NCBI RefSeq assembly: GCF_000004195.4
Contig: NC_030677.2
Span: 112,493,036 to 112,557,035 of the forward strand
Length of the DNA: 64,000 nt
From: Xenopus tropicalis
Lineage: Eukaryota > Chordata > Amphibia > Anura > Pipidae
Direction: 5' to 3'
Notes under the pieces: model-generated
The model's input: only the letters and a program-made list of their open reading frames with translations
The model's database searches: none
Told to the model about the DNA's origin: nothing
Position numbers and translations under genes: made by a program
Shown: positions 2,928 through 64,000 of the stretch, piece by piece
Layout of the letters: each line of letters begins with the position of its first letter
How positions within the stretch are numbered: position 1 is the stretch's first letter

Positions 2928-2934
<7 letters not shown>

Positions 2935-2982
<48 letters not shown>
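2935..2982. repeat. (TA)n microsatellite
   Basis: About 24 uninterrupted TA dinucleotides downstream of the fold-back element. Confidence 0.95.
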
Positions 2983-2985
<3 letters not shown>

Positions 2986-2999
2986 CCCGCCCCCCCATC

Positions 3000-4500: not shown

Positions 4501-4527
4501 ATGTTGTATGGTTTTCACATAGAGAAT

Positions 4528-6520: not shown

Positions 6521-6521
6521 C

Positions 6522-14405: not shown

Positions 14406-14560
14406 TTGGTCTGAGTGCAGTCAGTTGCCCATAGACATTGCCTGATGAGTGCTAATGACTAAATAGAGTGCACCTGTGTGTAATCTAATGTCAGTACAAA
14501 TACAGCTGCTCTGTGACGGCCTCAGAGGTTGTCTAAGAGAATATTGGGAGCAACAACACC

Positions 14561-15580
14561 ATGAAGTCCAAAGAACACACCAGACAGGTCAGGGATAAAG
14601 TTATTGAGAAATTTAAAGCAGGCTTAGGCTACAAAAAGATTTCCAAAGCCTTGAACATCCCACGGAGCACTGTTCCATCGATCATTCAGAAATGGAAGGA
14701 GTATGGCACAACTGTAAACCTACCAAGACAAGGCCGTCCACCTAAACTCACAGGCCGAACAAGGAGAGCGCTGATCAGAAATGCAGCCAAGAGGCCCATG
14801 GTGACTCCGGACGAGCTGCAGAGATCTACAGCTCAGGTGGGGGAATCTGTCCATAGGACAACTATTAGTCGTGCACTGCACAAAGTTGGCCTTTATGGAA
14901 GAGTGGCAAGAAGAAAGCCATTGTTAACAGAAAACCATATGAAGTCCCGTTTGCAGTTTGCCACAAGCCATGTGGGGGACACAGCATACATGTGGAAGAA
15001 GGTGCTCTGGTCAGATGAGGCCAAAATGGAACTTTTTGGCCAAAATGCAAAACGTTATGTGTGGCGGAAAACTAACACTGCACATCACTCTGAACACACC
15101 ATCCCCACTGTCAAATATGGTGGTGGCAGCATCATGCTCTGGGGGTGCTTCTCTTCAGCAGGGACAGGGAAGCTGGTCAGAGTTGATGGGAAGATGGATG
15201 GAGCCAAATAAAGGGCAATCTTGGAAGAAAACCTCTTGGAGTCTGCAAAAGACTTGAGACTGGGGCGGAGGTTCACCTTCCAGCAGGACAACGACCCTAA
15301 ACATAAAGCCAGGGCAACAATGGAATGGTTTAAAACAAAACATATCAATGTGTTAGAATGGCCCAGTCAAAGTCCAGATCTAAATCCAATGGAGAATCTG
15401 TGGCAAGATCTGAAAACTGCTGTTCACAAACGCTGTCCATCTAATCTGACTGAGCTGGAGCTGTTTTGCAAAGAAGAATGGGCAAGGATTTCAGTCTCTA
15501 GATGTGCAAAGCTGGTAGAGACATACCCTAAAAGCCTGGCAGCTGTAATTGCAGCAAAAGGTGGTTCTACAAAGTATTGA
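14561..15580 (+). pseudogene. Tc1 transposase, one in-frame stop
   Basis: The frame from the ATG at 14561 to the stop at 15578-15580 encodes 339 positions, the usual Tc1 transposase length, with a single internal TAA at codon 217 (15209-15211). The N-terminal 1-115 has the paired helix-turn-helix DNA-binding region (KKISKALNIPRSTV at 25-38; GRPPK at 58-62). The catalytic DD34E triad is intact by position: D152 in LWSDEAK, D243 in QQDNDPKH and E278 in NPMENLW, with 34 residues between the last two. The glycine-rich box is YGGGSIMLWGCF (186-197). The enzyme would cut and paste the element at TA sites. The stop separates D152 from D243 and E278, so this copy should make no active protein. A single change could account for it. 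Frames on the opposite strand are shadows. Confidence 0.93.
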
Positions 15581-20900: not shown

Positions 20901-21025
20901 TTGGCTAACTAAGATAATCATAGCAAGCTTTCAGAACATTTTAGTTCCTTTTTCAAGCTGATAATCAGCTTGAAAAAGGAACTAAAATGTTCTGAAAGCT
21001 TGCTATGATTATCTTAGTTAGCCAA
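20901..21025. repeat. perfect 62-bp-arm hairpin
   Basis: Bases 20901-20962 and 20964-21025 are exact inverses with a single A (20963) between them. The arms run from TTGGCTAACTAAGATAATCA to TTTTTCAAGCTGAT. The motif TTGAAAAAGGAACTAAAATG, then TTCTGAAAGC, falls in the right arm and matches the stem-GAAA arrangement seen elsewhere in the window. Confidence 0.97.
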
Positions 21026-23150: not shown

Positions 23151-23577
23151 CAGGGGTCTCAAACTCGCGGCCCGCGGGCCATTTGCGGCCCTCGGTACAG
23201 TATTTTGTGGCCCGCACCAACGCCTTCTCAAAAGCAATGAATGGATCGCGATTTTTATTGCGATTCAAGGGATAATGCAAGGCACGGCGGGCGGGAGCTG
23301 CTGATTGCGGAAATGACGTTATGCCATCATAACAGTTATTATGGGAAGACGTTCTGTGTGCACAATTAGCTGCTAAGGAGCTAATTGTGCACACAGAACG
23401 TCTTCCCATAATAACTGTTATGATGGCATAACGTCATTTCCGCAATCAGCAGCTCCCGCCCGCCGTGCCTTGCATTATCCCTTGAAAGCCAATTTTTTGT
23501 GAAATCCCTTATGCAGCCCAGCCTCATCCTGACTTTGCCTCCTGCGGCCCCCAGGTAAATTGAGTTTGAGCCCCCTG
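23151..23577. mobile_element. hAT-type MITE with exact 8-bp duplication
   Basis: The ends are CAGGGGTCTCAAACTC and the inverse AGTTTGAGCCCCCTG. The 8-bp word CCTTATAG precedes (23143-23150) and follows (23578-23585) the element, as expected for hAT transposition. The interior holds a perfect inverted repeat with 108-bp arms (23264-23371 and 23379-23486) around a 7-bp spacer. A lone right-end relative (AGTTTGACACCCCTG) occurs near 24316. It has no coding capacity. Confidence 0.92.
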
Positions 23578-37689: not shown

Positions 37690-37920
37690 GTAATTAACAT
37701 GCACATGTATATTCAGTGGATGAGCACAGAGAGGTGTCTGCGATAGGTGATTGTTTCATAGAAAGGGGGATTTAAATGAGAAAGAGAGGAGACAGGATGA
37801 GGAACTGTTGACACCTCCCTCCTGACTCCAGAAAGCTGACAGATTTCACACAAAGGACACTTGCAGGGTATTAAGACAGGAGCTCAAAGTCAGAAGTCCA
37901 GACCTACAGCTGAAAGCAAC
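37690..37920 (+). promoter_or_regulatory. gdf3: putative gdf3 proximal promoter and 5' UTR
   Basis: Directly upstream of the gdf3 start codon there is a TATA-like TTTAAA at 37771-37776, and two T-box half sites in opposite orientation: AGGTGT at 37732-37737 and ACACCT at 37811-37816. The X. laevis orthologue is known to respond to the T-box factor VegT, which makes these sites plausible inputs. Six-base half sites are common by chance, so the assignment is tentative. The transcription start is not determined. Confidence 0.4.
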
Positions 37921-38173
37921 ATGGAAGGGATGATGCTCTCACTCGCTTGCTTTTTCTCCTTTCTTTTAATGGTGAAATCCTCTCCACTCACCTTCCAGGA
38001 AAGAATGCTCCTCAAAGCCTTGGGGCTGAACACCAGACCAAACCCCATTGCTCCAGGTCCTGTACCTAAGTCTTTAAGAGACATTTTTGAGAAGGGGATA
38101 AACAAGGACAACCCCTGCATGATGGAAGGTTTTGGGGTACCCGGAAATATTGTCCGCTCATATCGAGATCAAG
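37921..38173 (+). CDS. gdf3: gdf3 (Derriere) exon 1: signal peptide and start of prodomain
   Basis: The ATG at 37921 opens a frame whose first 20 residues form a hydrophobic signal peptide ([13 protein letters not shown] core). Residues 21-84 begin the TGF-beta prodomain, with [12 protein letters not shown] and VPKSLRDIF, the conserved prodomain opening in the Vg1/GDF1/GDF3 group. The exon ends after CAAG at 38173 with the donor GTAAGT, splitting a Gly codon after its first base. No in-frame ATG precedes the signal peptide in the open frame (upstream residues read from a TTG), so 37921 is the chosen start. Joined to 38954-39765 it gives 354 residues, the length I recall for Derriere. The protein is a secreted Nodal/Vg1-class ligand acting in mesoderm induction and left-right patterning. 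Confidence 0.93.
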
Positions 38174-38953
38174 GTAAGTGAGGGAATCCTGTAGGATAAG
38201 GATTTGTAATTTGAAACTTGTCATTTATATAGTTATTAGTGTATAGTCAGACAAAGATTATGTAACTAACCAGAAAATGAGAGGTTATCCAAAATGCAGT
38301 GCTGAAAAGTGTTTACAATTAATGAACTATAAATACTGTGTGTAGGCACCATTGTTTGAGGGCATATTTTGATCTGGTACCTCTCCGTGTATGACATAAA
38401 TTAAGCCAGACACACCAGCCTGCTGGCAAGATAAACCAGACTTCCAGTGTAGGTACTTAAACATGGCACCTTCATTAGAAAATGAAGGGGTGTACAATTT
38501 AAATGTAAGTGTTTGACTAGTAGTGCAAACAAAGTATTTGAACACGTGGTAAAAAGTGAAAAAGGGAGCTTTAACTTTAATGCATTCTGCCTGTCCGTTT
38601 AATAATAACAGTTATAATCACTAATGACTGTCCTATTGTACTTCTGTACAGAAAATACCTCTGAGTCTGCCAGTGTATACCCAGCACTGGATAGATCGTT
38701 TTGCTGGTGTGCACCCACTCCTAACCTATTGTTTATAAGCATGCACTGACTGGAGGGAGGAGTACCCTACTCAGCACCTATTATGGAATATACCTACTTT
38801 TTCTGTCGACTTGGTAACCAGTGTTATCTGGTTCTCTCCTGACATGTACATAAATATGCTTAAAAGATATGATGAAAGTGTTTGTAAATCTTTTAAGAAC
38901 AAGATTATATAAGATCATAATTAACAGTTGTCCATTTTTCATCTTTCTCCTAG
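38174..38953 (+). other. gdf3: gdf3 intron
   Basis: The 780-bp intron has GTAAGT at the 5' splice site and TTTTTCATCTTTCTCCTAG at the 3' site, a good pyrimidine tract. Its single location inside the prodomain matches the two-exon layout usual for BMP/Vg1-type genes. No nested gene or clear repeat was seen. Confidence 0.9.
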
Positions 38954-39765
38954 GACCTGTAGCAGCCATGGAGGAGCCACAAGAATCACTGTGCTTAAAG
39001 AAATTTCTCTTTTTTGACCTATCAGCAGTGGAGAATAAGGAGCAACTGACCCTAGGCCAACTGGAAATTAAGTTCAAGCACAACTCGTATTATGGACAAC
39101 AGTTCCATCTGCGCCTCTACCGCACCCTTCAGCTATCTCTAAAGGGTATGAGAGAGAGCAAGATGAACAGGAAGCTTCTAGTGTCACAGTCTTTCCGGCT
39201 TCTTCATAAGTCCCTCTATTTTAACCTGACCAAGGTGGCAAAGGACTGGAAAACCCCTGAGAAGAATATGGGACTGTTATTGGAGATATATGCTAGCAGT
39301 AAACTTGCAGGAGACAACAGATCATTTGCAGTGTGTGAACCAATCCAGTCTTTCATTTACACTTCTCTGCTCACTGTGTCTCTAGACCCATCCAGCTGCA
39401 AAACTCCGCGAGCCAAGAGAAGTACTCATTCATCGCCTCCAACCCCAAGTAATATCTGCAAAAAGAGGCGCCTGTACATTGACTTCAAGGATGTTGGATG
39501 GCAGAACTGGGTGATTGCACCCCGTGGTTACATGGCCAACTACTGCTATGGAGAGTGCCCCTATCCACTGACAGAAATGCTCAGGGGCACAAATCATGCT
39601 GTTTTGCAGACTCTGGTGCATTCTGTAGAACCAGAAAGCACCCCTTTGCCTTGCTGTGCCCCCACTAAGCTGTCTCCTATCTCCATGCTATATTATGACA
39701 ACAATGACAATGTGGTACTGAGGCACTATGAAGATATGGTAGTAGATGAATGTGGTTGCAAGTGA
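38954..39765 (+). CDS. gdf3: gdf3 (Derriere) exon 2: prodomain, cleavage site and mature ligand
   Basis: The exon starts two bases into the Gly85 codon and ends at TGA (39763-39765). Residues 85-240 complete the prodomain, with [14 protein letters not shown] (137-150), [15 protein letters not shown] (158-172) and potential N-glycosylation sites at N175 and N206. RAKR at 237-240 is a furin-type cleavage site. The mature 114-residue domain (241-354) has all seven TGF-beta cysteines (253, 282, 286, 318, 319, 351, 353), the [10 protein letters not shown] box and CYGEC. Cys318-Cys319 is intact, so a disulfide-linked dimer is possible; mammalian GDF3 lacks one cysteine of this set. The match is better to Derriere than to Vg1 (gdf1), judged from the Lys C-terminus and the divergent prodomain. 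Opposite-strand frames are shadows. This is the only intact protein gene seen in the window. Confidence 0.95.
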
Positions 39766-44930: not shown

Positions 44931-45150
44931 GGCCAGTGTTGAGGCTCAGTGGCGTGGGCCAGAGATAGCAGCCAGTAGAAAGGGTTTCCAGACAAAGGCT
45001 GATGGAATGGGCCAGTGTTGGGGGCCAGTGTTGGGGGCCAGTGGTGTGGGCCAGAGTCATCAGCCAATGGAAGGGACTGCAGGCAGAGGCTGATGGAATG
45101 GGCCAGTGTTGTGGGCCGGTGGCGAGGCCCAGAGAAGACAGTCTTGGGAG
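44931..45150 (+). repeat. outlying diverged copies of the 80-bp satellite (about 2.5 units)
   Basis: The words GGGCCAGTGTTGNGGG, GCCAGAGATAGCAGCC, AGAAAGGGTTTCCAGACA/GGAAGGGACTGCAGGCAGAG and GCTGATGGAATGGGCC follow the order and spacing of the 80-bp satellite unit that begins at 49569, with far more substitutions (for example GATGGAATGGG for GATGGAGTGGG). They lie 4.4 kb before the main array. Confidence 0.85.
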
Positions 45151-45475
45151 CTGGTTTAGGTGAGTAACCTGCGTCTCTGTCTTTCTGTACTTAGGGTTGG
45201 GGTGGGCTTTTGTATTGAGTAAATACTGTATATGTATATATGTGCAGAGTTATCCTACCGACATATTTATCTTTATACTTTGGTTGAAGTTGGTTAAATG
45301 CATGTAAATATATGTATAAAATATATGTATATAAGTTCAAGTTTTATGATGCACATTTTGTTTATATTTATGGATTTTTGTTTATACTTATGATAGAATA
45401 TCTGTTTTTGTTTTGTAATTATTATTATTGTTTTTCTAAGTTGCTTGTTTTTTCAATATAAAAAATAAATGGGCC

Positions 45476-45560
45476 ACTTTTGGGGGCCAGTGGTGTGGGC
45501 CAGAGACAGCAGCCGGTGGAATGACCTGCAAGCAGAGGCCGATGGAGTGGGCCATTTGGG
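45476..45560 (+). repeat. outlying single copy of the 80-bp satellite
   Basis: One unit: GGGCCAGTGGTGTGGGCC, AGAGACAGCAGCCGGTGGAA, GACCTGCAAGCAGAGGCCGA and TGGAGTGGGCC. It is closer to the main-array sequence than the 44931 copies. Confidence 0.85.
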
Positions 45561-45585
45561 AGCCATTCTCACAGTATTAACACCA

Positions 45586-46260
45586 GGGTCCCCAAACCTT
45601 TCAGTTAGTCACTAGGGGACTGCAGTTTTAGTTTTAAAAAGTGGGCAGAGCCACCAACAACCAATCAGATTCCACCTATTGAATTTTATTGGGTTGATGC
45701 CAGGGTTCCCAAACTTTGCACAGTCAGTCACTGGGTGAATTCGTACTCAAGGTTAGAAAAAGTGGGCAGGGCTGCCAAAAGCCAATCACATTTCTTTCAC
45801 TGTTTTAAGTGGGGAAATTTTAACTGCTGCCATTCTCACATGTTTAATGTCAGGGTCCCCAAACTTTGCACAGTTTGTCACTGGGTGACTACATTCCAAG
45901 TGGAAAGTGGGCGGGCCAACAACAGCCAATCAGATTTCACCTATAGACTTCTTGCCTTTACATTGAAACTGTTGCTGTTTGTTAACTATTAATCCTAGAG
46001 TCCCTGAACTTTGCAGAGTAAGTCACAGGGTAACTGCAGTTCCAGGTTAGAAAAAGTGAGCCACCAATCGCCAATCAGATGTCACTCGTTGACTTTCAGT
46101 GGGGAAATTTAAATTGCTGCCATTCAGACACTATTAAAACCAGGGTCCCCAAACTTTGCACATTGGTTTTACTTTAACTGTGGCCCAAGGTTAGAAAAAG
46201 TGGGCGGAGCCAACAACAAATCAGATTTCATTCAGTGACTTCACGTTTTTCAAACCAACA
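45586..46260. repeat. tandem repeat, five units of about 145 bp
   Basis: Each unit opens with CCAGGGTCCCCAAACTTTGC (variants) at about 45588, 45701, 45850, 45994 and 46140. Shared words are GTCACTGGGTGA, AGAAAAAGTGGGC, the CCAATCAGATTTCA block, and GGGGAAATTTAAACTGCTGC in the longer units. The units are well diverged. The array starts about 25 bp after the last outlying 80-bp satellite unit. Confidence 0.85.
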
Positions 46261-48500: not shown

Positions 48501-49568
48501 TAGTTATTTCTACCCTGTATTACATCCACTAACTCTAAAATACATGGGCCAGAGAAGCCAGTCCCATTTCACTAACTATCGGTGACATTAAATAGCAGCC
48601 ATTGCCTTTAATGTTAATCTTTTCAGCTATATTTTATGATAACCTATTTTTATTTTCTGCCATCCTATGTTATATATGTTATTCTACTTGTATTCTATTT
48701 ACCTTACACTGTACTCCTTTAAGCTATAAGTTCAGGCCAGCACTAGCATATTTGTCCTTAGTATTAAGATGGCAGTAAGTGAAGGCAATTCTATAATGAG
48801 GAAATATGTAACTATCCTTATTTTTTACCATCTTATTCTTATTTTTTATTATTTTTATTTCTTTATTCTGTATCCTCATTGTTGTATTCCTTATCATTAT
48901 TATCCTAATTTAAATTTCTTGTCCTTATTACTTTATTATTTAGCCTTATTTTTTTCACAATTTTTTATAATCTAATGTTATGTATTCTTTGCTATTTAGT
49001 GCTTCTGGCATAAAATTTTTAATCATTTTATCTTATCCAATCCTGATGAACTTTATCTATATACAAATATGGGATTAATTATCCAACATTTTTGGGAGTT
49101 GTGGTTTTTCTATAATTTGGAAGTATTACAAGGTACTATCTACTTATTAAGTGGGAAAACTATGGTTAAATTTAAGCTTAAGCTTTAATTCATTAAATTC
49201 CTATTTATCTTAAAGCTGATCAAGAGGAAGGAAAACAAAACCCCTCTGAGGCAAATGTGCCAAATGTGCCTCAAAAGGGGAAAAAAAATCCTTCCTGACT
49301 CCAATATGGTAATTGTACTGGTCCCTGGGTCGCTAATGTACTATGTGTAGTGGTCCTTATTTATTCTGGTAGCCTATATTCGGGTAGTCTATTTAATGTT
49401 TAAGGTTCTGTCCCTTCCTAATTATACCATATGGCTAAACAATGTAAATCTTCCTCTTCATTTTTTAAATACGAGTCCTTTAGTTATATCCTTTGCCATA
49501 CATAATAAATATAATCAAAGGAGCTGAATCTGGACCCAAAGGTGTACATAAGTTGGGTGCTACTCAAA
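48501..49568. other. T-rich flank of the satellite array
   Basis: A strongly pyrimidine-rich and AT-rich plus strand (about 48610-49010) and no gene. Bases 49225-49330 (CCTTCCTGACTCCAATATGG) resemble 27218-27260, a probable dispersed repeat. The array begins abruptly after ACTCAAA at 49567. Confidence 0.5.
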
Positions 49569-52500
49569 GTGTTGGGGGGGCCGGTGGCAGGGCACAGAGA
49601 CAGCAGCCGGTGGAAGGGGCTGCAGGCAGAGGCCGATGGAGTGGGCCGGTGTTAGGGGGGGGGGGGGCGGTGGCAGGGCACAGAGAGCAGCCGGTAGAAG
49701 GGGCTGCAGGCAGAGGCCGATGGAGTGGGCCAGTGTTGGGGGGGGGCGGTGTCAAGGCACAAACACAATAGCCGGTGGAAGGGGCTGCAGGCAGAGGCCG
49801 ATGGAGTGGGCCAGTGTTGGGGGGGCCGGTGGCAGGGCACAAAGACAGCAGCCGGTGGAAGGGGCTGCAGGTAGAGGCCAATGAAGTGGGCCAGTGTTGG
49901 GGGGGCCGGTCTCAAAGCACAAAAACAGCAGCCGGTGGAAGGGGCTGCAGCCAGAGGCCGATGGAGTGGGCCAGTGTTGGGGGGGCCGGTGGCAGGGCAC
50001 AAAGACAGCAGCCGGTGGAAGGGGCTGCAGGTAGAGGCCGATGGAGTGGGCCGGTGTTAGGGGGGCCGGTGGCAAGGCAGAGAGACAGCAGCCGGTGGAA
50101 GGGGCTGCAGGCAGAGGCCGATGGAGTGGGCCAGTGTTAGGGGGGCCGGTGGCAAGGCAGAGAGACAGCAGCCGGTGGAAGGGGCTGCAGGCAGAGGCCG
50201 ATGGAGTGGGCCAGTGTTAGGGGGGCCGGTGGCAAGGCAGAGAGACAGCAGCCGGTGGAAGGGGCTGCAGGCAGAGGCCGATGGAGTGGGCCGGTGTTAG
50301 GGGGGCCGGTGAAAAGGCACAGAGAAAGCAGCCGGTGGAAGGGGCTGCAGGCAGAAGCCGATGGAGTGGGCCGGTGTTGGGGGGGGCCGGTGGCAGGGCA
50401 AAGAGAGCAGCCGGTGGAAGGGGCTGCAGGCAGAGGCCGATGGAGTGGGCCAGTGTTGGGGGGGCCGGTGGCAAGGCCCAGAGATAGCAGCCGATGGAAG
50501 GGGCTGCAGGCAGAGGCCGATGTAGTGGGCCGGTGTTAGGAGGGGCCGGTGGCAGGGCACAGAGAGCAGCCGGTGGAAGGGGCTGCAGGCAGAGGCCGAT
50601 GGAGTGGGCCAGTGTTGGGGGGGCCGGTGGCAGGGCACAAAGACAGCAGCCGGTGGAAGGGGCTGCAGGCAGAGGCCAATGGAGTGGGCCGGTGTTAGGG
50701 GGGCCGGTGAAAAGGCACAGAGACAGCAGCCGGTGGAAGGGGCTGCAGGCAGAGGCCGATGGAGTGGGCCAGTGTTGGGGGGGGGCCGGTGGCAGGGCAC
50801 AGAGAGCAGCCGGTGGAAGGGGCTGCAGGCAGAGGCCGATGGAGTGGGCCAGTGTTGGGGGGGGGGCGGTGGCAGGGCACAGAGAGCAGCCGGTGGAAGG
50901 GGCTGCAGGCAGAGGCCGATGGAGTGGGCCAGTGTTGGGGGGGCCGGTGGCAGGGCACAAAGACAGCAGCCGGTGGAAGGGGCTGCAGGTAGAGGCCGAT
51001 GGAGTGGGCCGGTGTTAGGGGGGCCGGTGGCAAGGCAGAGAGACAGCAGCCGGTGGAAGGGGCTGCAGGCAGAGGCCGATGGAGTGGGCCAGTGTTAGGG
51101 GGGCCGGTGGCAAGGCAGAGAGACAGCAGCCGGTGGAAGGGGCTGCAGGCAGAGGCCGATGGAGTGGGCCAGTGTTAGGGGGGCCGGTGGCAAGGCAGAG
51201 AGACAGCAGCCGGTGGAAGGGGCTGCAGGCAGAGGCCGATGGAGTGGGCCGGTGTTAGGGGGGCCGGTGAAAAGGCACAGAGAAAGCAGCCGGTGGAAGG
51301 GGCTGCAGGCAGAAGCCGATGGAGTGGGCCGGTGTTGGGGGGGGCCGGTGGCAGGGCACAGAGAACAGCCGGTGGAAGGGGCTGCAGGCAGAGGCCGATG
51401 GAGTGGGCCAGTGTTGGGGGGGCCGGTGGCAAGGCCCAGAGATAGCAGCCGATGGAAGGGGCTGCAGGCAGAGGCCGATGTAGTGGGCCGGTGTTAGGAG
51501 GGGCCGGTGGCAGGGCACAGAGAGCAGCCGGTGGAAAGGGCTGCAGGCAGAGGCCGATGGAGTGGGCCAGTGTTGGGGGGGCCGGTGGCAGGGCACAAAG
51601 ACAGCAGCCGGTGGAAGGGGCTGCAGGCAGAGGCCAATGGAGTGGGCCGGTGTTAGGGGGGCCGGTGAAAAGGCACAGAGACAGCAGCCGATGAAAGGGG
51701 CTGCAGGCAGAGGCCGATGGAGTGGGCCAGTGTTGGGGGGGGGGGGCCGGTGGCAGGGCACAGAGAGCAGCCGGTGGAAGGGGCTGCAGGCAGAGGCCGA
51801 TGGAGTGGGCCAGTGTTGGGGGGGGGGCGGTGGCAGGGCACAGAGAGCAGCCGATGGAAGGGGCTGCAGGCAGAGGCCAATAGAGTGGGCCAGTGTTGGG
51901 GAGGCCGGTGGCAGGGCACAAAGACAGCAGCCGGTGGAAGGGGCTGCAGGTAGAGGCTGATGGGGTGGGCCAGTGTTGGGGGGGGGGCCGGTGGCAGGGC
52001 ACAGAGAGCAGCCGGTGGAAGGGGCTGCAGGCAGAGGCCGATGGAGTGGGCCAGTGTTGGGGGGGGGCCGGTGGCAGGGCACAGAGAGCAGCCGGTGGAA
52101 GGGGCTGCAGGCAGAGGCCGATGGAGTGGGCCAGTGTTGGGGGGGGGCCGGTGGCAGGGCACAGAGAGCAGCCGGTGGAAGGGGCTGCAGGCAGAGGCCG
52201 ATGGAGTGGGCCAGTGTTGGGGTGGGCCGGTGGCAGGGCACAAAGACAGCAGCCGGTGGAAGGGGCTGCAGGTAGAGGCCGATGGAGTGGGCCGGTGTTA
52301 GGGGGGCCGGTGGCAAGGCAGAGAGACAGCAGCCGGTGGAAGGGGCTGCAGGCAGAGGCCGATGGAGTGGGCCAGTGTTAGGGGGGCCGGTGGCAAGGCA
52401 GAGAGACAGCAGCCGGTGGAAGGGGCTGCAGGCAGAGGCCGATGGAGTGGGCCAGTGTTAGGGGGGCCGGTGGCAAGGCAGAGAGACAGCAGCCGGTGGA

Positions 52501-54803
52501 AGGGGCTGCAGGCAGAGGCCGATGGAGTGGGCCGGTGTTAGGGGGGCCGGTGAAAAGGCACAGAGAAAGCAGCCGGTGGAAGGGGCTGCAGGCAGAAGCC
52601 GATGGAGTGGGCCGGTGTTGGGGGGGCCGGTGGCAGGGCACAGAGAACAGCCGGTGGAAGGGGCTGCAGGCAGAGGCCGATGGAGTGGGCCAGTGTTGGG
52701 GGGGCCGGTGGCAAGGCCCAGAGATAGCAGCCGATGGAAGGGGCTGCAGGCAGAGGCCGATGTAGTGGGCCGGTGTTAGGAGGGGTCGGTGGCAGGGCAC
52801 AGAGAGCAGCCGGTGGAAAGGGCTGCAGGCAGAGGCCGATGGAGTGGGCCAGTGTTGGGGGGGCCGGTGGCAGGGCACAAAGACAGCAGCCGGTGGAAGG
52901 GGCTGCAGGCAGAGGCCAATGGAGTGGGCCGGTGTTAGGGGGGCCGGTGAAAAGGCACAGAGACAGCAGCCGGTGGAAGGGGCTGCAGGCAGAGGCCGAT
53001 GGAGTGGGCCAGTGTTGGGGGGGGGGCCGGTGGCAGGGCACAGAGAGCAGCCGGTGGAAGGGGCTGCAGGCAGAGGCCGATGGAGTGGGCCAGTGTTGGG
53101 GGGGGGCCGGTGGCAGGGCACAGAGAGCAGCCGGTGGAAGGGGCTGCAGGCAGAGGCCAATGGAGTGGGCCAGTGTTGGGGAGGCCGGTGGCAGGGCACA
53201 AAGACAGCAGCCGGTGGAAGGGGCTGCAGGTAGAGGCTGATGGAGTGGGCCAGTGTTGGGGGGCTGGTGGCAAGGCACAAAGACAGCAGCCGGTGGAAGG
53301 GGCTGCAGGCAGAGGCCAATGGAGAGGGCCAGTGTTGGGGGGGCCGGTGGCAGGGCACAAAGACAGCAGCCGGTGGAAGGGGCTGCAGGTAGAGGCTGAT
53401 GGAGTGGGCCAGTGTTGGGGGGGCCGGTGGCAAGGCACAAAGTCAGCAGCCGGTGGAAGGGGCTGCAGGCAGAGGCCGATGGAGTGGGCCAGTGTTGGCG
53501 GGGCCGGTGGCAGGGCACAAAGACAGCAGCCGGTGGAAGGGGCTGCAGGTAGAGGCTGATGGAGTGGGCCAGTGTTTGGGGGGGGCCGGTAGCAGGGCAC
53601 AAAGACAGCAGCCGGTGAAAGGGGCTGCAGGCAGAGGCCGATGGAGTGGGCCAGTGTTGGGGGAGCCGGTGGCAGGGCACAGAGAGCAGCCGGTGGAAGG
53701 GGCTGCAGGCAGAGGCCGATGGAGTGGGCCGGTGTTAGGGGGGCCGGTGGCAGGGCACAGAGAGCAGCCGGTGGAAGGGGCTGCAGGCAGAGGCCGATAG
53801 AGTGGGCCAGTATTGGGGGGGCCGGTGGCAGGGCACAAAGACAGCAGCCGGTGGAAGGGGCTGCAGGTAGAGGCTGATGGAGTGGGCCAGTGTTGGGGGG
53901 GGCCGGTGGCAAGGCACAAAGACAGCAGCCGGTGGAAGGGGCTGCAGGTAGAGGCTGATGGAGTGGCCCAGTGTTGGGGGGGCCGGTGGCAGGGCACAAA
54001 GACAGCAGCCGGTGGAAGGGGCTGCAGGTAGAGGCCGATGGAGTGGGCCAGTGTTGGGGGGGCCGGTGGCAGGGCACAAAGACAGCAGCCGGTGGAAGGG
54101 GCTGCAGGCAGAGGCCGATGGAGTGGGCCAGTGTTGGGGGGCCGGTGGCAAGGCACAAAGACAGCAGCCGGTGGAAGGGGCTGCAGGCAGAGGCCAATGG
54201 AGAGGGCCAGTGTTGGGGGGGCCGGTGGCAGGGCACAAAGACAGCAGCCGGTGGAAGGGGCTGCAGGTAGAGGCTGATGGAGTGGGCCAGTGTTGGGGGG
54301 CCGGTGGCAAGGCACAAAGACAGCAGCCGGTGGAAGGGGCTGCAGGCAGAGGCCGATGGAGTGGGCCAGTGTTGGCGGGGCCGGTGGCAGGGCACAAAGA
54401 CAGCAGCCGGTGGAAGGGGCTGCAGGTAGAGGCTGATGGAGTGGGCCAGTGTTGGGGGGGCCGGTGGCAAGGCACAAAGACAGCAGCCGGTGGAAGGGGC
54501 TGCAGGTAGAGGCTGATGGAGTGGGCCAGTGTTGGGGGGCCGGTGGCAGGGCACAAAGACAGCAGCCGGTGGAAGGGGCTGCAGGCAGAGGCCGATGGAG
54601 TGGGCCAGTGTTGGGGGAGCCGGTGGCAGGGCACAGAGTGCAGCTGGTGGAAGGGGCTGCAGGCAGAGGCCGATAGAGTGGGCCGGTGTTAGGGGGGCCG
54701 GTGGCAGGGCACAGAGAGCAGCCGGTGGAAGGGGCTGCAGGCAGAGGCCGATAGAGTGGGCCAGTGTTGGGGGGGCCGGTGGCAGGGCACAAAGACAGCA
54801 GCC
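49569..54803 (+). repeat. 80-bp satellite array, block 1 (plus)
   Basis: About 65 head-to-tail units. A typical unit reads GATGGAGTGGGCCAGTGTTG, GGGGGGCCGGTGGCAGGGCA, CAAAGACAGCAGCCGGTGGA and AGGGGCTGCAGGCAGAGGCC, 80 bp. Variants differ at the G-run length, CAGTGTTGGG versus CGGTGTTAGG, CACAAAGACAGCAG versus the 2-bp shorter CACAGAGAGCAG versus CAGAGAGACAGCAG, and GCAGAGGCCGATGG versus GTAGAGGCTGATGG. Variant units recur in fixed order about every 960 bp in part of the block. Long open frames on both strands come from the scarcity of stop triplets in the unit. Confidence 0.97.
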
Positions 54804-56600
54804 TGCCCTGCCACCGGCCCCCCCAACACTGGCCCACTCCATCAGCCTCTACCTGCAGCCCCTTCCACCGGCTGCTGTCTTTGTGCCTTGCCACCGGCCC
54901 CCCCAACACTGGCCCACTCCATCAGCCTCTACCTGCAGCCCCTTCCACCGGCTGCTGTCTTTGTGCCCTGCCACCGGCCTCCCCAACACTGGCCCACTCC
55001 ATTGGCCTCTGCCTGCAGCCCCTTCCACCGGCTGCTCTCTGTGCCCTGCCACCGCCCCCCCCCCAACACTGGCCCACTCCATCGGCCTCTGCCTGCAGCC
55101 CCTTCCACCGGCTGCTCTCTGTGCCCTGCCACCGGCCCCCCCCCAACACTGGCCCACTCCATCGGCCTCTGCCTGCAGCCCCTTCCACCGGCTGCTCTCT
55201 GTGCCCTGCCACCGGCCCCCCCCCAACACTGGCCCACTCCATCGGCCTCTGCCTGCAGCCCTTCCACCGGCTGCTGTCTCTGTGCCTTTTCACCGGCCCC
55301 CCTAACACGGGCCCACTCCATTGGCCTCTGCCTGCAGCCCCTTCCACCGGCTGCTGTCTTTGTGCCCTGCCACCGGCCCCCCCAACACTGGCCCACTCCA
55401 TCGGCCTCTGCCTGCAGCCCCTTCCACGGCTGCTCTCTGTGCCCTGCCACCGGCCCCTCCTAACACCGGCCCACTCCATCTGCCTCTGCCTGCAGCCCTT
55501 CCATCGGCTGCTATCTCTGGGCCTTGCCACCGGCCCCCCCAACACTGGCCCACTCCATCGGCCTCTGCCTGCAGCCCCTTCCACCGACTGCTCTCTGTGC
55601 CCTGCCACCGGCCTCCCCCAACACCGGCCCACTCCATCGGCTTCTGCCTGCAGCCCCTTCCACCGGCTGCTTTCTCTGTGCCTTTTCACCGGCCCCCCTA
55701 ACACCGGCCCACTCCATCGGCCTCTGCCTGCAGCCCCTTCCATCGGCTGCTATCTCTGGGCCTTGCCACCGGCCCCCTCAACACTGGCCCACTCCATCGG
55801 CCTCTGCCTGCAGCCCCTTCCACCGGCTGCTCTCTGTGCCCTGCCACCGCCCCCCCCCCAACACCGGCCCACTCCATCGGCTTCTGCCTGCAGCCCCTTC
55901 CACCGGCTGCTTTCTCTGTGCCTTTTCACCGGCCCCCCTAACACCGGCCCACTCCATCGGCCTCTGCCTGCAGCCCCTTCCACCGGCTGCTGTCTCTCTG
56001 CCTTGCCACCGGCCCCCCTAACACTGGCCCACTCCATCGGCCTCTGCCTGCAGCCCCTTCCACCGGCTGCTGTCTCTCTGCCTTGCCACCGGTCCCCCTA
56101 ACACTGGCCCACTCCATCGGCCTCTGCCTGCAGCCCCTTCCACCGGCTGCTGTCTCTCTGCCTTGCCACCGGCCCCCCTAACACCGGCCCACTCCATCGG
56201 CCTCTACCTTTAGCCCCTTCCACCGGCTGCTGTCTTTGTGCCCTGCCACCGGCCCCCCCAACACTGGCCCACTCCATCGGCCTCTGGCTGCAGCCCCTTC
56301 CACCGGCTGCTGTTTTTGTGCTTTGACACCGGCCCCCCCAACACTGGCCCACTTCATTGGCCTCTACCTGCAGCCCCTTCCACCGGCTGCTGTCTTTGTG
56401 CCCTGCCACCGGCCCCCCCAACACTGGCCCACTCCATCGGCCTCTGCCTGCAGCCCCTTCCACCGGCTGCTGTGTTTGTGCCTTGACACTGCCCCCCCCA
56501 ACACTGGCCCACTCCATCGGCCTCTGCCTGCAGCCCCTTCCACCGGCTGCTCTCTGTGCCCTGCCACCGCCCCCCCCCCTAACACCGGCCCACTCCATCG
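54804..56600 (-). repeat. 80-bp satellite array, block 2 (minus)
   Basis: About 22 units of the same satellite in reverse orientation (GCCCACTCCATCGGCCTCTG, CCTGCAGCCCCTTCCACCGG). At the left junction GGCAGGGCA and TGCCCTGCC face each other across 14 bp. Two variant runs that are in plus orientation in block 1 appear here inverted, for example the TTCATTGGCCTCTACCTGCA unit near 56350. Confidence 0.97.
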
Positions 56601-57580
56601 GCAGGGCACAGAGAGCAGCCGGTGGAAGGGGCTGCAGGCAGAGGCCGATGGAGTGGGCCAGTGTTGGGGGGGCCGGTGGCAGGGCACAAAGACAGCAGCC
56701 GGTGGAAGGGGCTGCAGGCAGAGGCCGATGGAGTGGGCCAGTGTTAGGGGGGCCGTTGGCAAGGCAGAGAGACAGCAGCCGGTGGAAGGGGCTGCAAGCA
56801 GAGGTCGATGGAGTGGGCCAGTGTTGGGGGGGCCGGTGGCAGGGCACAAAGACAGCAGCCGGTGGAAGGGGCTGCAAGCAAGAGGCCGATGGAGTGGGCC
56901 GGTGTTAGGGAGGCCGGTGAAAAGGCACAGAGACAGCAGCCGGTGGAAGGGGCTGCAGGCAGAGGCCGATGGAGTGGGCCGGTGTTAGGGGGGGGCGGTG
57001 GCAGGGCACAGAGACGCAGCCGGTGGAAGGGGCTGCGGGCAGAGGCCGATGGAGTGAGCCAGCGTTGGGGGGGCCGGTGTCAAGGCACAGAGACAGCAGC
57101 CGGTGGAAGGGGCTGCGGGCAGAGGCCAATGGAGTTGGCCAGTGTTGGGGGGCCGGTGTCAAGGCACAAAAACAGCAGCCGGTGGAAGGGGCTGCAGGTA
57201 GAGGCCGATGGAGTTGGCCGGTGTTAGGGGGGCCGGTGAAAAGGCACAGAGACAGCAGCCGGTGGAAGGGGCAGCAGGCAGAGGCCGATGGAGTGGGCCG
57301 GTGTTGGGGGGGGGCCGGTGGCAGGGCACAGAGAGCAGCCGGTGGAAGGGGCTGCAGGCAGAGGCCGATGGAGTGGGCCAGTGTTGGGGGGGCCGGTGCC
57401 AAGGCACAAAGACAGCAGCCGGTGGAAGGGGCTGCAGGTAGTGGCCGATGGAGTGGGCCAGTGTTGGGGGGGCCGGTGGCAGGGCACAAAGACAGCAGCC
57501 GGTGGAAGGGGCTGCAGGCAGAGGCCGATAGAGTGGGCCAGTGTTGGGGGGGCCGGTGGCAGGGCAGAAAGACAGCAGCC
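56601..57580 (+). repeat. 80-bp satellite array, block 3 (plus)
   Basis: About 12 units in plus orientation, including a GGCTGCGGGCAGAGG subtype (57030, 57110) that is otherwise seen only near 59330-59420 in block 5. It ends with a CAGCAGCCTATCCTTCCACC junction. Confidence 0.97.
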
Positions 57581-58977
57581 TATCCTTCCACCGGCCCCCC
57601 CAACACTGGCCCACTCCATCAGCCTCTACCTGCAGCCCCTTCCACCGGCTGCTGTCTTTGGGCCTTGCCACCGGCCCCCCCAACACTGGCCCACTCCATC
57701 AGCCTCTACCTGCAGCCCCTTCCACCGGCTGCTATCTTTGTGCCCTGCCACCGGCCTCCCCAACACTGGCCCACTCCATTGGCCTCTGCCTGCAGCCCTT
57801 CCACCGGCTGCTCTCTGTGCCCTGCCACCGGCCCCCCCAACACTGGCCCACTCCATCGGCCTCTGCCTGCAGCCCCTTCCACCGGCTGCTCTCTGTGCCC
57901 TGCCACCGCCCCCCCCCCAACACTGGCCCACTCCATCGGCCTCTGCCTGCAGCCCCTTCCACCGGCTGCTGTCTCTGTGCCTTTTCACCGGCCCCCCTAA
58001 CACCGGCCCACTCCATTGGCCTCTGCCTGCAGCCCCTTCCACCGGCTGCTGTCTTTGTGCCCTGCCACCGGCCCCCCCAACACTGGCCCACTCCATCGGC
58101 CTCTGCCTGCAGCCCCTTCCACCGGCTGCTCTCTGTGCCCTGCCACTGGCCCCTCCTAACACCGGCCCACTCCATCGGCCTCTGCCTGCAGCCCCTTCCA
58201 TCGGCTGCTATCTCTGGGCCTTGCACCGGCCCCCCCAACACTGGCCCACTCCATCGGCCTCTGCCTGCAGCCCCTTCCACCGGCTGCTCTCTGTGCCCTG
58301 CCACCGGCCCCCCCAACACCGGCCCACTCCATCGGCTTCTGCCTGCAGCCCCTTCCACCGGCTGCTTTCTCTGTGCCTTTTCACCGGCCCCCCTAACACC
58401 GGCCCACTCCATCGGCCTCTGCCTGCAGCCCCTTCCACCGGCTGCTGTCTCTCTGCCTTGCCACCGGCCCCCCTAACACTGGCCCACTCCATCGGCCTCT
58501 GCCTGCAGCCCCTTCCACCGGCTGCTGTCTCTCTGCCTTGCCACCGGCCCCCCTAACACCGGCCCACTCCATCGGCCTCTACCTGCAGCCCCTTCCACCG
58601 GCTGCTGTCTTTGTGCTATGCCACCGGCCCCCCCAACACTGGCCCACTCCATCGGCCTCTGGCTACAGCCCCTTCCACCGGCTGCTGTTTTTGTGCTTTG
58701 ACACCGGCCCCCCCAACACTGGCCCACTTCATTGGCCTCTACCTGCAGCCCCTTCCACCGGCTGCTGTCTTTGTGCCCTGCCACCGGCCCCCCCAACACT
58801 GGCCCACTCCATCGGCCTCTGCCTGCAGCCCCTTCCACCGGCTGCTGTGTTTGTGCCTTGACACCGCCCCCCCCAACACTGGCCCACTCCATCGGCCTCT
58901 GCCTGCAGCCCCTTCCACCGGCTGCTCTCTGTGCCCTGCCACCGCCCCCCCCCCCTAACACCGGCCCACTCCATCGG
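57581..58977 (-). repeat. 80-bp satellite array, block 4 (minus)
   Basis: About 17 units in minus orientation. Its unit order parallels block 2 with one internal part missing, and it ends at the same ACTCCATCGGCAGGGCACAG junction. Confidence 0.97.
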
Positions 58978-61900
58978 CAGGGCACAGAGAGCAGCCGGTG
59001 GAAGGGGCTGCAGGCAGAGGCCGATGGAGTGGGCCAGTGTTGGGGGGGCCGGTGGCAGGGCACAAAGACAGCAGCCGGTGGCAGGGGCTGCAGGCAGAGG
59101 CCGATGGAGTGGGCTGGTGTTAGGGGGGCCGGTGGCAAGGCAGAGAGACAGCAGCCGGTGGAAGGGGCTGCAAGCAGAGGTCGATGGAGTGGGCCAGTGT
59201 TGGGGGGGCCGGTGGCAGGGCACAAAGACAGCAGCCGGTGGAAGGGGCTGCAGGCAGAGGCCGATGGAGTGGGCCGGTGTTAGGGGGGGCCGGTGGCAGG
59301 GCACAGAGACGCAGCCGGTGGAAGGGGCTGCGGGCAGAGGCCGATGGAGTGGGCCAGTGTTGGGGGGGCCGGTGTCAAGGCACAGAGACAGCAGCCGGTG
59401 GAAGGGGCTGCGGGCAGAGGCCAATGGAGTGGGCCAGTGTTGGGGGGGCCGGTGTCAAGGCACAAAAACAGCAGCCGGTGGAAGGGGCTGCAGGTAGAGG
59501 CCAATGGAGTGGGCCGGTGTTAGGGGGGCCGGTGAAAAGGCACAGAGACAGCAGCCGGTGGAAGGGGCTGCAGGCAGAGGCCGATGGAGTGGGCCGGTGT
59601 TGGGGGGGGGCCGGTGGCAGGGCACAGAGAGCAGCCGGTGGAAGGGGCTGCAGGCAGAGGCCGATGGAGTGGGCCAGTGTTGGGGGGGCCGGTGGCAAGG
59701 CACAGAGATAGCAGCCGGTGGAAGGGGCTGCAGGCAGAGGCCGATGGAGTGGGCCAGTGTTGGGGGGGGACCGGTGGCAGGGCACAGAGAGCAGCCGGTG
59801 GAAGGGGCTGCAGGCAGAGGCCGATGGAGTGGGCCAGTGTTGGGGGGGCCGGTGGCAGGGCACAAAGACAGCAGCCGGTGGAAGGGGCTGCAGGTAGAGG
59901 CCGATGGAGTGGGCCGGTGTTAGGGGGGCCGGTGGCAAGGCAGAGAGACAGCAGCCGGTGGAAGGGGCTGCAGGCAGAGGCCGATGGAGTGGGCCAGTGT
60001 TAGGGGGGCCGGTGGCAAGGCAGAGAGACAGCAGCCGGTGGAAGGGGCTGCAGGTAGAGGCCGATGGAGTGGGCCAGTGTTGGGGGGGGCCGGTGGCAAG
60101 GCAGAGAGACAGCAGCCGGTGGAAGGGGCTGCAGGCAGAGGCCGATGGAGTGGGCCGGTGTTAGGGGGGGGGGCAGAGAGCAGCCGGTAGAAGGGGCTGC
60201 AGGCAGAGGCCGATGGAGTGGGCCAGTGTTGGGGGGGGCAGTGACAAGGCACAAACACAGCAGCCGGTGGAAGGGGCTGCAGGCAGAGGCCGATGGAGTG
60301 GGCCAGTGTTGGGGGGGCCGGTGGCAGGGCACAAAGACAGCAGCCGGTGGAAGGGGCTGCAGGTAGAGGCCAATGAAGTGGGCCAGTGTTGGGGGGGCCG
60401 GTGTCAAAGCACAAAAACAGCAGCCGGTGGAAGGGGCTGCAGCCAGAGGCCGATGGAGTGGGCCAGTGTTGGGGGGGCCGGTGGCAGGGCACAAAGACAG
60501 CAGCCGGTGGAAGGGGCTGCAGGTAGAGGCCGATGGAGTGGGCCGGTGTTAGGGGGGCCGGTGGCAAGGCAGAGAGACAGCAGCCGGTGGAAGGGGCTGC
60601 AGGCAGAGGCCGATGGAGTGGGCCAGTGTTAGGGGGGCCGGTGGCAAGGCAGAGTGACAGCCGCCGGTGGAAGGGGCTGCAGGCAGAGGCCGATGGAGTG
60701 GGCCAGTGTTAGGGGGGCCGGTGGCAAGGCAGAGAGACAGCAGCCGGTGGAAGGGGCTGCAGGCAGAGGCCGATGGAGTGGGCCGGTGTTAGGGGGGCCG
60801 GTGAAAAGGCACAGAGAAAGCAGCCGGTGGAAGGGGCTGCAGGCAGAAGCCGATGGAGTGGGCCGGTGTTGGGGGGGGGCCGGTGGCAGGGCACAGAGAG
60901 CAGCCGGTGGAAGGGGCTGCAGGCAGAGGCCGATGGAGTGGGCCAGTGTTGGGGGGGCCGGTGGCAAGGCCCAGAGATAGCAGCCGAAGGAAAGGGCTGC
61001 AGGCAGAGGCCGATGTAGTGGGCCGGTGTTAGGAGGGGCCGGTGGCAGGGCACAGAGAGCAGCCGGTGGAAGGGGCTGCAGGCAGAGGCCGATGGAGTGG
61101 GCCAGTGTTGGGGGGGCCGGTGGCAGGGCACAAAGACAGCAGCTGGTGGAAGGGGCTGCAGGCAGAGGCCAATGGAGTGGGCCGGTGTTAGGGGGGCCGG
61201 TGAAAAGGCACAGAGACAGCAGCCGGTGGAAGGGGCTGCAGGCAGAGGCCGATGGAGTAGGCCAGTGTTGGGGGGGGGGGCCGGTGGCAGGGCACAGAGA
61301 GCAGCCGGTGGAAGGGGCTGCAGGCAGAGGCCGATGGAGTGGGCCAGTGTTGGGGGGGGACCGGTGGCAGGGCACAGAGAGCAGCCGGTGGAAGGGGCTG
61401 CAGGCAGAGGCCGATGGAGTGGGCCAGTGTTGGGGGGGCCGGTGGCAGGGCACAAAGACAGCAGCCGGTGGAAGGGGCTGCAGGTAGAGGCCGATGGAGT
61501 GGGCCGGTGTTAGGGGGGCCGGTGGCAAGGCAGAGAGACAGCAGCCGGTGGAAGGGGCTGCAGGCAGAGGCCGATGGAGTGGGCCAGTGTTAGGGGGGCC
61601 GGTGGCAAGGCAGAGAGACAGCAGCCGGTGGAAGGGGCTGCAGGCAGAGGCCGATGGAGTGGGCCAGTGTTAGGGGGGCCGGTGGCAAGGCAGAGAGACA
61701 GCAGCCGGTGGAAGGGGCTGCAGGCAGAGGCCGATGGAGTGGGCCGGTGTTAGGGGGGCCGGTGAAAAGGCACAGAGAAAGCAGCCGGTGGAAGGGGCTG
61801 CAGGCAGAAGCCGATGGAGTGGGCCGGTGTTGGGGGGGGGCCGGTGGCAGGGCACAGAGAACAGCCGGTGGAAGGGGCTGCAGGCAGAGGCCGATGGAGT

Positions 61901-63698
61901 GGGCCAGTGTTGGGGGGGCCGGTGGCAAGGCCCAGAGATAGCAGCCGATGGAAGGGGCTGCAGGCAGAGGCCAATGGAGTGGGCCGGTGTTAGGGGGGCC
62001 GGTGAAAAGGCACAGAGACAGCAGCCGGTGGAAGGGGCTGCAGGCAGAGGCCGATGGAGTGGGCCAGTGTTGGGGGGGGGGCCGGTGGCAGGGCACAGAG
62101 AGCAGCCGGTGGAAGGGGCTGCAGGCAGAGGCCGATGGAGTGGGCCAGTGTTTGGGGGGGGGGGCGGTGGCAGGGCACAGAGAGCAGCCGGTGGAAGGGG
62201 CTGCAGGCAGAGGCCAATGGAGTGGGCCAGTGTTGGTGAGGCCGGTGGCAGGGCACAAAGACAGCAGCCTGTGGAAGGGGCTGCAGGTAGAGGCTGATGG
62301 AGTGGGCCAGTGTTGGGGGGCTGGTGGCAAGGCACAAAGACAGCAGCCGGTGGAAAGGGGCTGCAGGCAGAGGCCAATGGAGAGGGCCAGTGTTGGGGGG
62401 GCCGGTGGCAGGGCACAAAGACAGCAGCCGGTGGAAGGGGCTGCAGGTAGAGGCTGATGGAGTGGGCCAGTGTTGGGGGGCCGGTGGCAAGGCACAAAGA
62501 CAGCAGCCGGTGGAAGGGGCTGCAGGCAGAGGCCGATGGAGAGGGCCAGTGTTGGCGGGGCCGGTGGCAGGGCACAAAGACAGCAGCCGGTGGAAGGGGC
62601 TGCAGGTAGAGGCTGATGGAGTGGGCCAGTGTTGGGGGGGCCGGTAGCAGGGCACAAAGACAGCAGCCGGTGGAAGGGGCTGCAGGCAGAGGCCGATGGA
62701 GTGGGCCAGTGTTGGGGGAGCCGGTGGCAGGGCACAGAGAGCAGCCGGTGGAAGGGGCTGCAGGCAGAGGCCGATGGAGTGGGCCGGTGTTAGGGGGGCC
62801 GGTGGCAGGGCACAGAGAGCAGCCGGTGGAAGGGGCTGCAGGCAGAGGCCGATAGAGTGGGCCAGTGTTGGGGGGGCCGGTGGCAGGGCACAAAGACAGC
62901 AGCCGGTGGAAGGGGCTGCAGGTAGAGGCTGATGGAGTGGGCCAGTGTTGGGGGGGCCGGTGGCAAGGCACAAAGACAGCAGCCGGTGGAAGGGGCTGCA
63001 GGCAGAGGCCGATGGAGTGGGCCAGTGTTGGGGGGCCTGTGGCAAGGCACAAAGACAGCAGCCGGTGGAAGGGGCTGCAGGCAGAGGCCAATGGAGAGGG
63101 CCAGTGTTGGGGGGGCCGGTGGCAGGGCACAAAGACAGCAGCCGGTGGAAGGGGCTGCAGGTAGAGGCTGATGGAGTGGGCCAGTGTTAGGGGGCCAGTG
63201 GCAGGGCACAAAGACAGCAGCCGGTGGAAGGGGCTGCAGGCAGAGGCTGATGGAGTGGGCCAGTGTTGGCGGGGCCGGTGGCAGGGCACAAAGACAGCAG
63301 CCGGTGGAAGGGGCTGCAGGTAGAGGCTGATGGAGTGGGCCAGTGTTGGGGGGGCCGGTGGCAAGGCACAAAGACAGCAGCCGGTGGAAGGGGCTGCAGG
63401 TAGAGGCTGATGGAGTGGGCCAGTGTTGGGGGGGCCGGTGGCAGGGCACAAAGACAGCAGCCGGTGGAAGGGGCTGCAGGCAGAGGCCGATGGAGTGGGC
63501 TAGTGTTGGGGGAGCCGGTGGCAGGGCACAGAGTGCAGCTGGTGGAAGGTGCTGCAGGCAGAGGCCGATGGAGTGGGCCGGTGTTAGGGGGGCCGGTGGC
63601 AGGGCACAGAGAGCAGCCGGTGGAAGGGGCTGCAGGCAGAGGCCGATAGAGTGGGCCAGTGTTGGGGGGGCCGGTGGCAGGGCACAAAGACAGCAGAC
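58978..63698 (+). repeat. 80-bp satellite array, block 5 (plus)
   Basis: About 59 units. The first part parallels block 3, and the part from about 60230 onward parallels block 1 (49740 onward) with the same ordered variants, including the GCAGAAGCCGATGG unit at 60843 and 61804 (961 bp apart). Confidence 0.97.
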
Positions 63699-64000
63699 TG
63701 CCCTGCCACCGGCCCCCCCAACACTGGCCCACTCCATCAGCCTCTACCTGCAGCCCCTTCCACCGGCTGCTGTCTTTGTGCCTTGCCACCGGCCCCCCCA
63801 ACACTGGCCCACTCCATCAGCCTCTACCTGCAGCCCCTTCCACCGGCTGCTGTCTTTGTGCCCTGCCACCGGCCTCCCCAACACTGGCCCACTCCATTGG
63901 CCTCTGCCTGCAGCCCCTTCCACCGGCTGCTCTCTGTGCCCTGCCACCGGCCCCCCCCCAACACTGGCCCACTCCATCGGCCTCTGCCTGCAGCCCCTTC
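63699..64000 (-). repeat. 80-bp satellite array, block 6 (minus), runs off the window
   Basis: The block starts TGCCCTGCCACCGGCCCCCC after ACAGCAGAC and continues in minus orientation to the last base. Its first units match the first units of block 2 (54804 onward). Confidence 0.97.

Follow-up and report, generated by a model that had tools for sequence, protein, structure and literature searches.

We studied a 64,000-nucleotide stretch of the Xenopus tropicalis genome (NCBI RefSeq assembly GCF_000004195.4, contig NC_030677.2, forward strand positions 112,493,036 to 112,557,035; hereafter the window, numbered from its first base), which ends in a GC-rich satellite of 80-bp units that changes direction five times. 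Tandem Repeats Finder (TRF) and a decomposition into units placed this satellite at positions 49568-64000 (14.4 kb), as six direction-alternating blocks (A to F) that meet at five switches (J1 to J5). The feature was confirmed as real and accurately described in the given sequence. Shared unit phases, anchor spacing and matching flanks showed that the five switches are copies of two original ones. Assuming that the assembly is correct here, the array on balance probably arose by one inverted duplication that was then multiplied as a palindromic higher-order repeat.

Organization of the array

The TRF output contained six period-80 arrays, located at 49568-54803 (+), 54804-56602 (-), 56600-57580 (+), 57584-58978 (-), 58976-63696 (+) and 63699-64000 (-). 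Their scores (516 to 8308) put the array far above chance expectation, and they shared a common unit, forward and reverse-complemented by turns, with the consensus AGTGTTGGGGGGGCCGGTGGCAGGGCACAAAGACAGCAGCCGGTGGAAGGGGCTGCAGGCAGAGGCCGATGGAGTGGGCC. An earlier note on this DNA, made from the sequence alone, had described six blocks of alternating orientation made of about 180 units of 80 bp. Both methods recovered these blocks, and the limits stated in the note agree within 1 bp with those of the decomposition (Table 1), which gave 187 units including partial ones (139 in + and 48 in - orientation); 176 of them were complete (134 + and 42 -), with a mean length of 79.8 bp. Copies run head to tail within the blocks, as in a tandem satellite or minisatellite, and the complete blocks span 0.98 to 5.2 kb. 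The GC content of 2-kb bins was 0.68-0.69 from position 50001 onward versus 0.34-0.46 before it, and the number of N bases in the 64-kb window was zero. Units were equally alike within and between orientations: mean pairwise identity was 0.918 overall, 0.918 for same-strand and 0.916 for opposite-strand pairs, and 12 of the 103 distinct complete unit sequences were found in both orientations.

Two types of orientation switch

At each of the three switches from + to - (J1, J3 and J5) the + strand ends at unit phase 41 and the - strand begins at phase 27; at both switches from - to + (J2 and J4) the - strand ends at phase 66 and the + strand begins at phase 21. The sequence tag of J1 reads ...GACAGCAGCC up to the joint and TGCCCTGCC... 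after it, and that of J2 ...CTCCATCGG and CAGGGCACAG..., respectively. Anchor-to-anchor distances were also type-specific: each of the three +/- switches had 134 bp, and the two -/+ switches had 88-89 bp. By our own arithmetic, the chance of such a recurrence of phases is about (1/6400)^3 if phases are independent and uniform.

The likeness extended well into the flanks. J1 and J5 shared 1166 of 1182 aligned bases (98.6% over 1.18 kb, with 16 substitutions and 1 gap), in an alignment that stops at the window end, and J2 and J4 shared 932 of 950 (98.0% over 0.95 kb, with 18 substitutions and 1 gap). The right flank of J3, compared with that of J1, showed an identity of 0.88 at the tip followed by four full units at 0.97-0.99; its left flank showed a partial unit at 0.98 and a next unit at 0.94, and then fell to background level. 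Two unit variants mark the same three switches. GGTAGAGGCTGATGGAG has six - copies, every one of which lies in the first or second full unit past J1, J3 or J5 (15 further copies are +). GGCCGATAGAGTGGG has six copies, all +, and the nearest full unit to the left of each of the three switches contains one of them; both variants support the common descent of J1, J3 and J5. The five reversals described in the earlier note are reduced to two junction types, one present three times and the other twice.

Inverted perfect stems of at least 20 bp (spacer at most 60) had only five centres in the array, namely the five switches, with stems of 29-36 bp at J1, J3 and J5 and 73 bp at J2 and J4. Two junctions were folded as single-stranded DNA and gave strong predicted folds (z-scores of -21.5 for J2 and -13.8 for J1), in agreement with the palindromic centres proposed before. 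Stems as good as that of J2 (73 bp, spacer 34) occurred in 2.8-2.9% of 3100 opposite-strand unit pairs, and stems as good as that of J1 (36 bp, spacer 14) in 6.9%, the pairs being drawn from insertion-free complete units only (100 of 134 + and 31 of 42 -). This excess of stem length at J2 and J1 fits a local fold-back origin, for which it is suggestive only. The J1 palindrome also carried the sole Rfam match in the window, to mir-25 (54759-54834, - strand; 41.5 bits against a cut-off of 40.5); it was not reported when 54600-55000 was scanned alone, and we rejected it as a hairpin look-alike, likely a false microRNA call at a satellite switch.

Mirror order of the units

When gaps were allowed, all 24 units of B could be placed on A in inverted order, with a mean identity of 0.976 and a score of 11.8, as compared with 0.2 for the opposite order and 2.3 for the best of 40 shuffles; the 24 include a 15-nt partial unit at the J2 tip, which was given a neutral value. 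The tip of B corresponds to A from 49633 on, save for the length of a G-run, so that B ends about 65 bp short of the left edge of A. Block D was likewise placed on A inverted (17 of 19 units, one of them a short partial with neutral value; score 8.1 versus 0.6 for the best shuffle), E on A directly (55 of 60 units; 30.0 versus -1.4) and C on the left part of E (12 of 13 units, identity 0.973; 5.2 versus 2.1). The score of C on A was -0.0, within the shuffles (maximum 0.5). Chained unit pairs were highly similar, with 17 B-D pairs at 0.987, 41 A-E pairs at 0.989 and 5 B-F pairs at 0.997, and under a stiffer gap cost A-B, A-D, A-E, B-D, C-E, B-E and D-E exceeded all 60 shuffles. For block F, the base-level J1/J5 match is better evidence than its short unit-order score. 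These arm and chain scores depend on the chosen unit alignment, gap costs and thresholds; partial units with at most 15 shared aligned positions received no identity and a neutral value.

The arms on both sides of the junctions had identities of 0.89-0.94 per unit, in three registers and across as many as 18 units (at J5, where the window ends, across four or five), and of 92-94% in gapped alignments of 300-1400 bp; the comparison level is the 0.918 average of random unit pairs. The very large palindromes proposed earlier were thus found as a mirror symmetry in gapped unit order, but their arms are imperfect and their perfect stems are only those of 29-36 and 73 bp given above.

Table 1 Coordinates of the blocks, switches, diverged units and neighbouring gene in the window.
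Feature	Position	Strand	Description	Basis or remark
Block A	49568..54803	+	66 units, last partial; left edge abuts unique AT-rich DNA	TRF, unit decomposition, sequence
Block B	54804..56601	-	24 units, both ends partial; inverted, mirrors A's unit order	Unit decomposition, unit-order placement
Block C	56602..57581	+	13 units; homologous to left part of E, to A not beyond shuffles	
Block D	57582..58976	-	19 units, inverted; homologous to B, and to A inverted	
Block E	58977..63698	+	60 units; C-type start, then second copy of A	
Block F	63699..64000	-	5 units, inverted, cut by window end; matches start of B	
Junction J1 (+/-)	54754..54839	.	Between 54803/54804; phase 41 joined to 27; 36-bp perfect stem, 14-nt spacer	
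Junction J2 (-/+)	56493..56672	.	Near 56601; phase 66 joined to 21; perfect 73-bp stem, 34-nt spacer	
Junction J3 (+/-)	57531..57616	.	Near 57581; J1 phases, 3 tip substitutions; 29-bp perfect stem, 28-nt spacer	
Junction J4 (-/+)	58868..59048	.	Near 58976; J2 joint; perfect 73-bp stem, 35-nt spacer	
Junction J5 (+/-)	63649..63734	.	Between 63698/63699; identical to J1 across stretch except one spacer base; 36-bp stem, 14-nt spacer	
Two diverged unit copies	44949..45135 (44949-45024, 45027-45135)	+	79-80% identity; possible remnant or seed of family	blastn
Third diverged unit copy	45482..45554	+	85% over 73 bp	blastn
gdf3 (derriere) coding exons	37840..39765 (37921-38175, 38953-39762)	+	TGF-beta domain, E 1.3e-37	Limits by tblastn

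Proposed origin

A stretch of the array would have been duplicated once in inverted orientation, giving rise to two junctions, a +/- one of the J1 type and a -/+ one of the J2 type, with the inverted piece being a mirror copy of A whose end lies about 65 bp from the left edge of the array. Fold-back or template switching in replication or repair would be the likely route, giving a +/-/+ composite similar to an inverted triplication. Such a composite could then have acted as a long palindromic higher-order repeat that unequal exchange copied together with its junctions. The window would contain three of these composites, A-B, C-D and E-F (E-F truncated where the window ends), each running + and then - across a J1-type switch and joined to its neighbour by a J2-type switch. 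Local gain and loss of units would have altered the block lengths, the + part of C-D probably being a shortened + part of E-F. We infer the replication mechanism, the order of events and the neutrality of the array; it is most likely neutral, and no function needs to be assumed.

Several observations weigh against this origin. J3 shares only about 120 bp of the left flank of J1 and has three tip substitutions, which makes its status as a copy less certain. The stems are only modestly longer than chance would give (0.03 and 0.07), and the microhomology at the switches, as read by eye, is 2 bp at J2 and none at J1. Without gaps, the arms resemble each other no more than randomly chosen units do, so that a palindrome, if it was perfect at the outset, must since have been reworked. 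A simple inverted triplication should show a direct copy immediately past J2, and none was seen there: a direct-inverted-direct test found the inverted copy of A, and E matched A, but C, which follows J2, did not match it beyond shuffles. The stiffer gap cost chained only 15 A-B unit pairs, and with it A-C, B-C, C-D, B-F (5.3 versus 5.3) and D-F (3.7 versus 3.9) were not above the best of 60 shuffles. Finally, A holds a direct duplication of 28 units (49927-51197 to 52167-53437, 98%), and this duplication and other local expansions have no counterpart in B, so that either arm may be the older.

Alternative explanations

The switches could be an assembly artefact, in which case the true array would run head to tail or have one inverted block, and the assembler would have chained palindromic or mis-oriented reads or joined haplotypes; in the haplotype form, E-F would be the other allele of the A-B region set in series. 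Long arrays of near-identical units are prone to misassembly, and E-F is collinear with A-B. As described in PMC10794172, the X. tropicalis v10 assembly was made from PacBio continuous long reads (CLR) and linked reads, with most of its remaining gaps in repetitive, satellite-rich regions. A missed-adapter palindrome would leave near-identical arms, unlike the 0.89-0.94 per unit and 92-94% with gaps that we observed. The copies of each junction differ chiefly by substitutions rather than gaps (16 to 1 and 18 to 1), and substitution-dominated differences are unlike raw CLR error. Chance chimeras would not reproduce the same two phases, and A and E differ by whole units. Arm divergence, substitution-type differences and recurring phases make random chimeras and missed-adapter palindromes unlikely, and the same evidence is compatible with an allelic placement of E-F in series or with a consensus built from few reads. 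Taken as a whole, an artefact seems to us rather unlikely.

If an internal segment had undergone one clean inversion and had later been duplicated along with both of its ends, the outcome would likewise be one +/- and one -/+ junction to be copied. With phases 41 and 27 joined at J1, a clean inversion demands 42 joined to 28 at J2, where 66 joined to 21 was observed, so that the ends would have had to lose about 24 nt and gain about 7 nt by doubling. Moreover, B is a second copy of the left part of A, which is still present in A, so a duplication is required even under inversion. The clean single inversion was rejected as improbable because the breakpoint phases are not complementary.

Selection might also have maintained a macro-dyad architecture, the blocks being kept since giant hairpins or loops would aid chromatin, as proposed for Tribolium (peri)centromeres. 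The shared layout of inverted subarrays with recurrent conserved inversion sites, as described in PMC13081366, and the strong predicted single-strand folds at J1 and J2 would agree with it. Against it, we have a single locus, which lies about 9.8 kb from a developmental gene, and copying accounts for the likeness of the sites (98% flanks); we consider this selection very improbable. Five independent reversals by repeated breakage at one fragile unit position, with which the location of the switches in hairpin-prone GC-rich sequence would agree, were rejected as hardly credible on the long shared flanks of J1/J5 and J2/J4 and the variants shared by J1, J3 and J5, which point to copying, recurrence being less firmly excluded for J3 alone given its short left flank.

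Comparison with known systems

The nearest published parallel that we found is the macro-dyad satellites of the beetle genus Tribolium. Passages of PMC13081366 describe Tribolium madens satellite arrays in which subarrays are inverted and the inversion sites are conserved; they state that macro-dyads are documented exclusively in that genus. In the passages of PMC13427858, the term 'macro-dyad' was present in the reference list only. The frog array resembles the TmSat1 and TmSat2 macro-dyads described there in its kb-scale alternating subarrays of variable length and its few highly similar inversion sites; two features of a macro-dyad, kb subarrays in opposite orientation and recurrent conserved inversion sites, are present at this one locus, J3 being weaker on its left side. 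According to the same passages, the Tribolium arrays are multi-megabase, likely (peri)centromeric, present on all chromosomes with thousands of inversion sites, and checked on raw high-fidelity (HiFi) reads, whereas the frog case is one 14.4-kb GC-rich array near a gene, known here from assembled sequence alone. It may, tentatively, represent a vertebrate gene-adjacent palindromic satellite higher-order repeat, that is, an inverted composite in which two switch sites are fixed and which multiplies as a unit.

Satellite expansions in the extended subtelomeres of Xenopus, for which unequal crossing over was suggested, are reported in PMC10794172. Our array is like them, as there described, in being a GC-rich tandem array whose unit holds the tetramers reported as enriched (TGGG, AGGG and ACAG). 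The unit has, counting both strands, TGGG twice, AGGG twice and ACAG once, as compared with 1.1, 2.1 and 0.4 in shuffled units; the tetramers are only partly elevated, and AGGG is no commoner than in shuffled units. As to orientation switching, a count of the strings 'inverted' and 'palindrom' in the main text of PMC10794172 gave 0 for both. No described Xenopus satellite with an 80-bp unit or with switching orientation was recognised from titles, abstracts and passages among the open-licence papers listed by the searches.

PMC10766186, PMC13334657 and PMC11724301 describe how replication or repair can produce inverted copies that are separated by short spacers. In the inverted triplications presented in the first two, small ones included (origin-dependent inverted-repeat amplification, ODIRA, and duplication-inverted triplication-duplication, DUP-TRP/INV-DUP), a central inverted copy lies between direct copies and is joined to them at inverted repeats with short spacers. 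The array is like them in its inverted copy and its short spacers, here of 14 nt (J1 and J5), 28 nt (J3) and 34-35 nt (J2 and J4), a direct copy right after J2 not being clearly found. It differs from them in that the substrate is itself tandem, so every switch has inverted repeats and short spacers. Primate alpha-satellite inversions, as described in parts of PMC11062924, are also reversed blocks of a vertebrate tandem satellite, so that such blocks are not new in vertebrates. These are centromeric, 3.2 Mb in the example given, and are termed inversion polymorphisms rather than repeated composites with copied junctions.

The unit and its diverged relatives

The 80-bp unit resembles a diverged trimer of sub-repeats of about 26 bp, which begin CCGGTGGCAGGGCA..., CCGGTGGAAGGGGC... 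and CCGATGGAGTGGGC..., respectively. Their summed score of 11.0 was higher than that of any of 500 shuffles (mean -5.3, maximum 10.0); taken by itself, the alignment of the first with the third sub-repeat was poor (score -2). The CpG at unit phases 67-68 is decaying, perhaps owing to methylation at the site: of 176 units, 23 have changed C to T and 24 have changed G to A. The other two consensus CpGs stay above 90% across units.

Three diverged copies of the unit sit 4-5 kb to the left of the array, beyond the limits that the earlier note had given it. Their position (44949-45554) and identity (79-85%) suggest that the family may predate the expansion of the array here; alternatively, they may belong to an older dispersed element. 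Directly to their right, the region 45562-46241 contains diverged repeat copies (67-69% identity) at offsets of about 270 and about 150 bp.

An exact 24-base core of the unit had 0 matches in collections of prokaryote and virus sequences, from which records of the genome itself may be left out. To trace the taxonomic spread of the satellite, chance open frames of the array were used in two protein searches, in which composition filtering may have hidden all matches: the first scored 7996 candidates with none at an E value of 0.001 or better, and the second 1936 candidates with none at 10 or better. Pfam gave no match in the single array reading frame examined.

Genomic surroundings

The array starts about 9.8 kb beyond gdf3 (derriere). 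The best match of this gene was GDF3 of Xenopus laevis (94% over 89% of the query), and identity to Hymenochirus was 84%. These values place the window in the genus Xenopus, and the X. laevis match bears out the earlier attribution of the window to a frog genome. In X. tropicalis derriere lies 3' of Vg1, according to passages of PMC6134012, which was not used as evidence.

Other repeated elements were found further to the left. A Tc1/mariner-type transposase frame with one in-frame stop extends from 14537 to 15580, with HTH_Tnp_Tc3_2 and Sleeping Beauty HTH domains before the stop and DDE_3 after it. A near-perfect palindrome at 23264-23486 (108-bp perfect stem, 7-nt spacer) is perhaps, at a guess, a palindromic miniature inverted-repeat transposable element, and another palindromic element with a 62-bp perfect stem and a 1-nt spacer is located at 20901-21025. 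A 55-bp near-palindromic unit, AAATGTGTTCTTCAGGGACA...TGTCCCTGAAGAAGAACACATTT, is repeated about twice (98% matches) at 2690-2802, flanked by TA runs at 2546-2611 and 2933-2982.

Significance

We regard the array as of moderate interest pending confirmation by reads. Because it is small and has an anchor in unique DNA (about 9.8 kb from gdf3), one long read could cross several switches, which would make the history of the array directly testable. If long reads confirm the layout, alternating-direction satellites with fixed switch sites would not be peculiar to beetles. If the proposed origin is true, fixed switch sites can arise merely by the copying of a composite that already contains the switches, and copying would be a neutral explanation to set against the structural role proposed for Tribolium.

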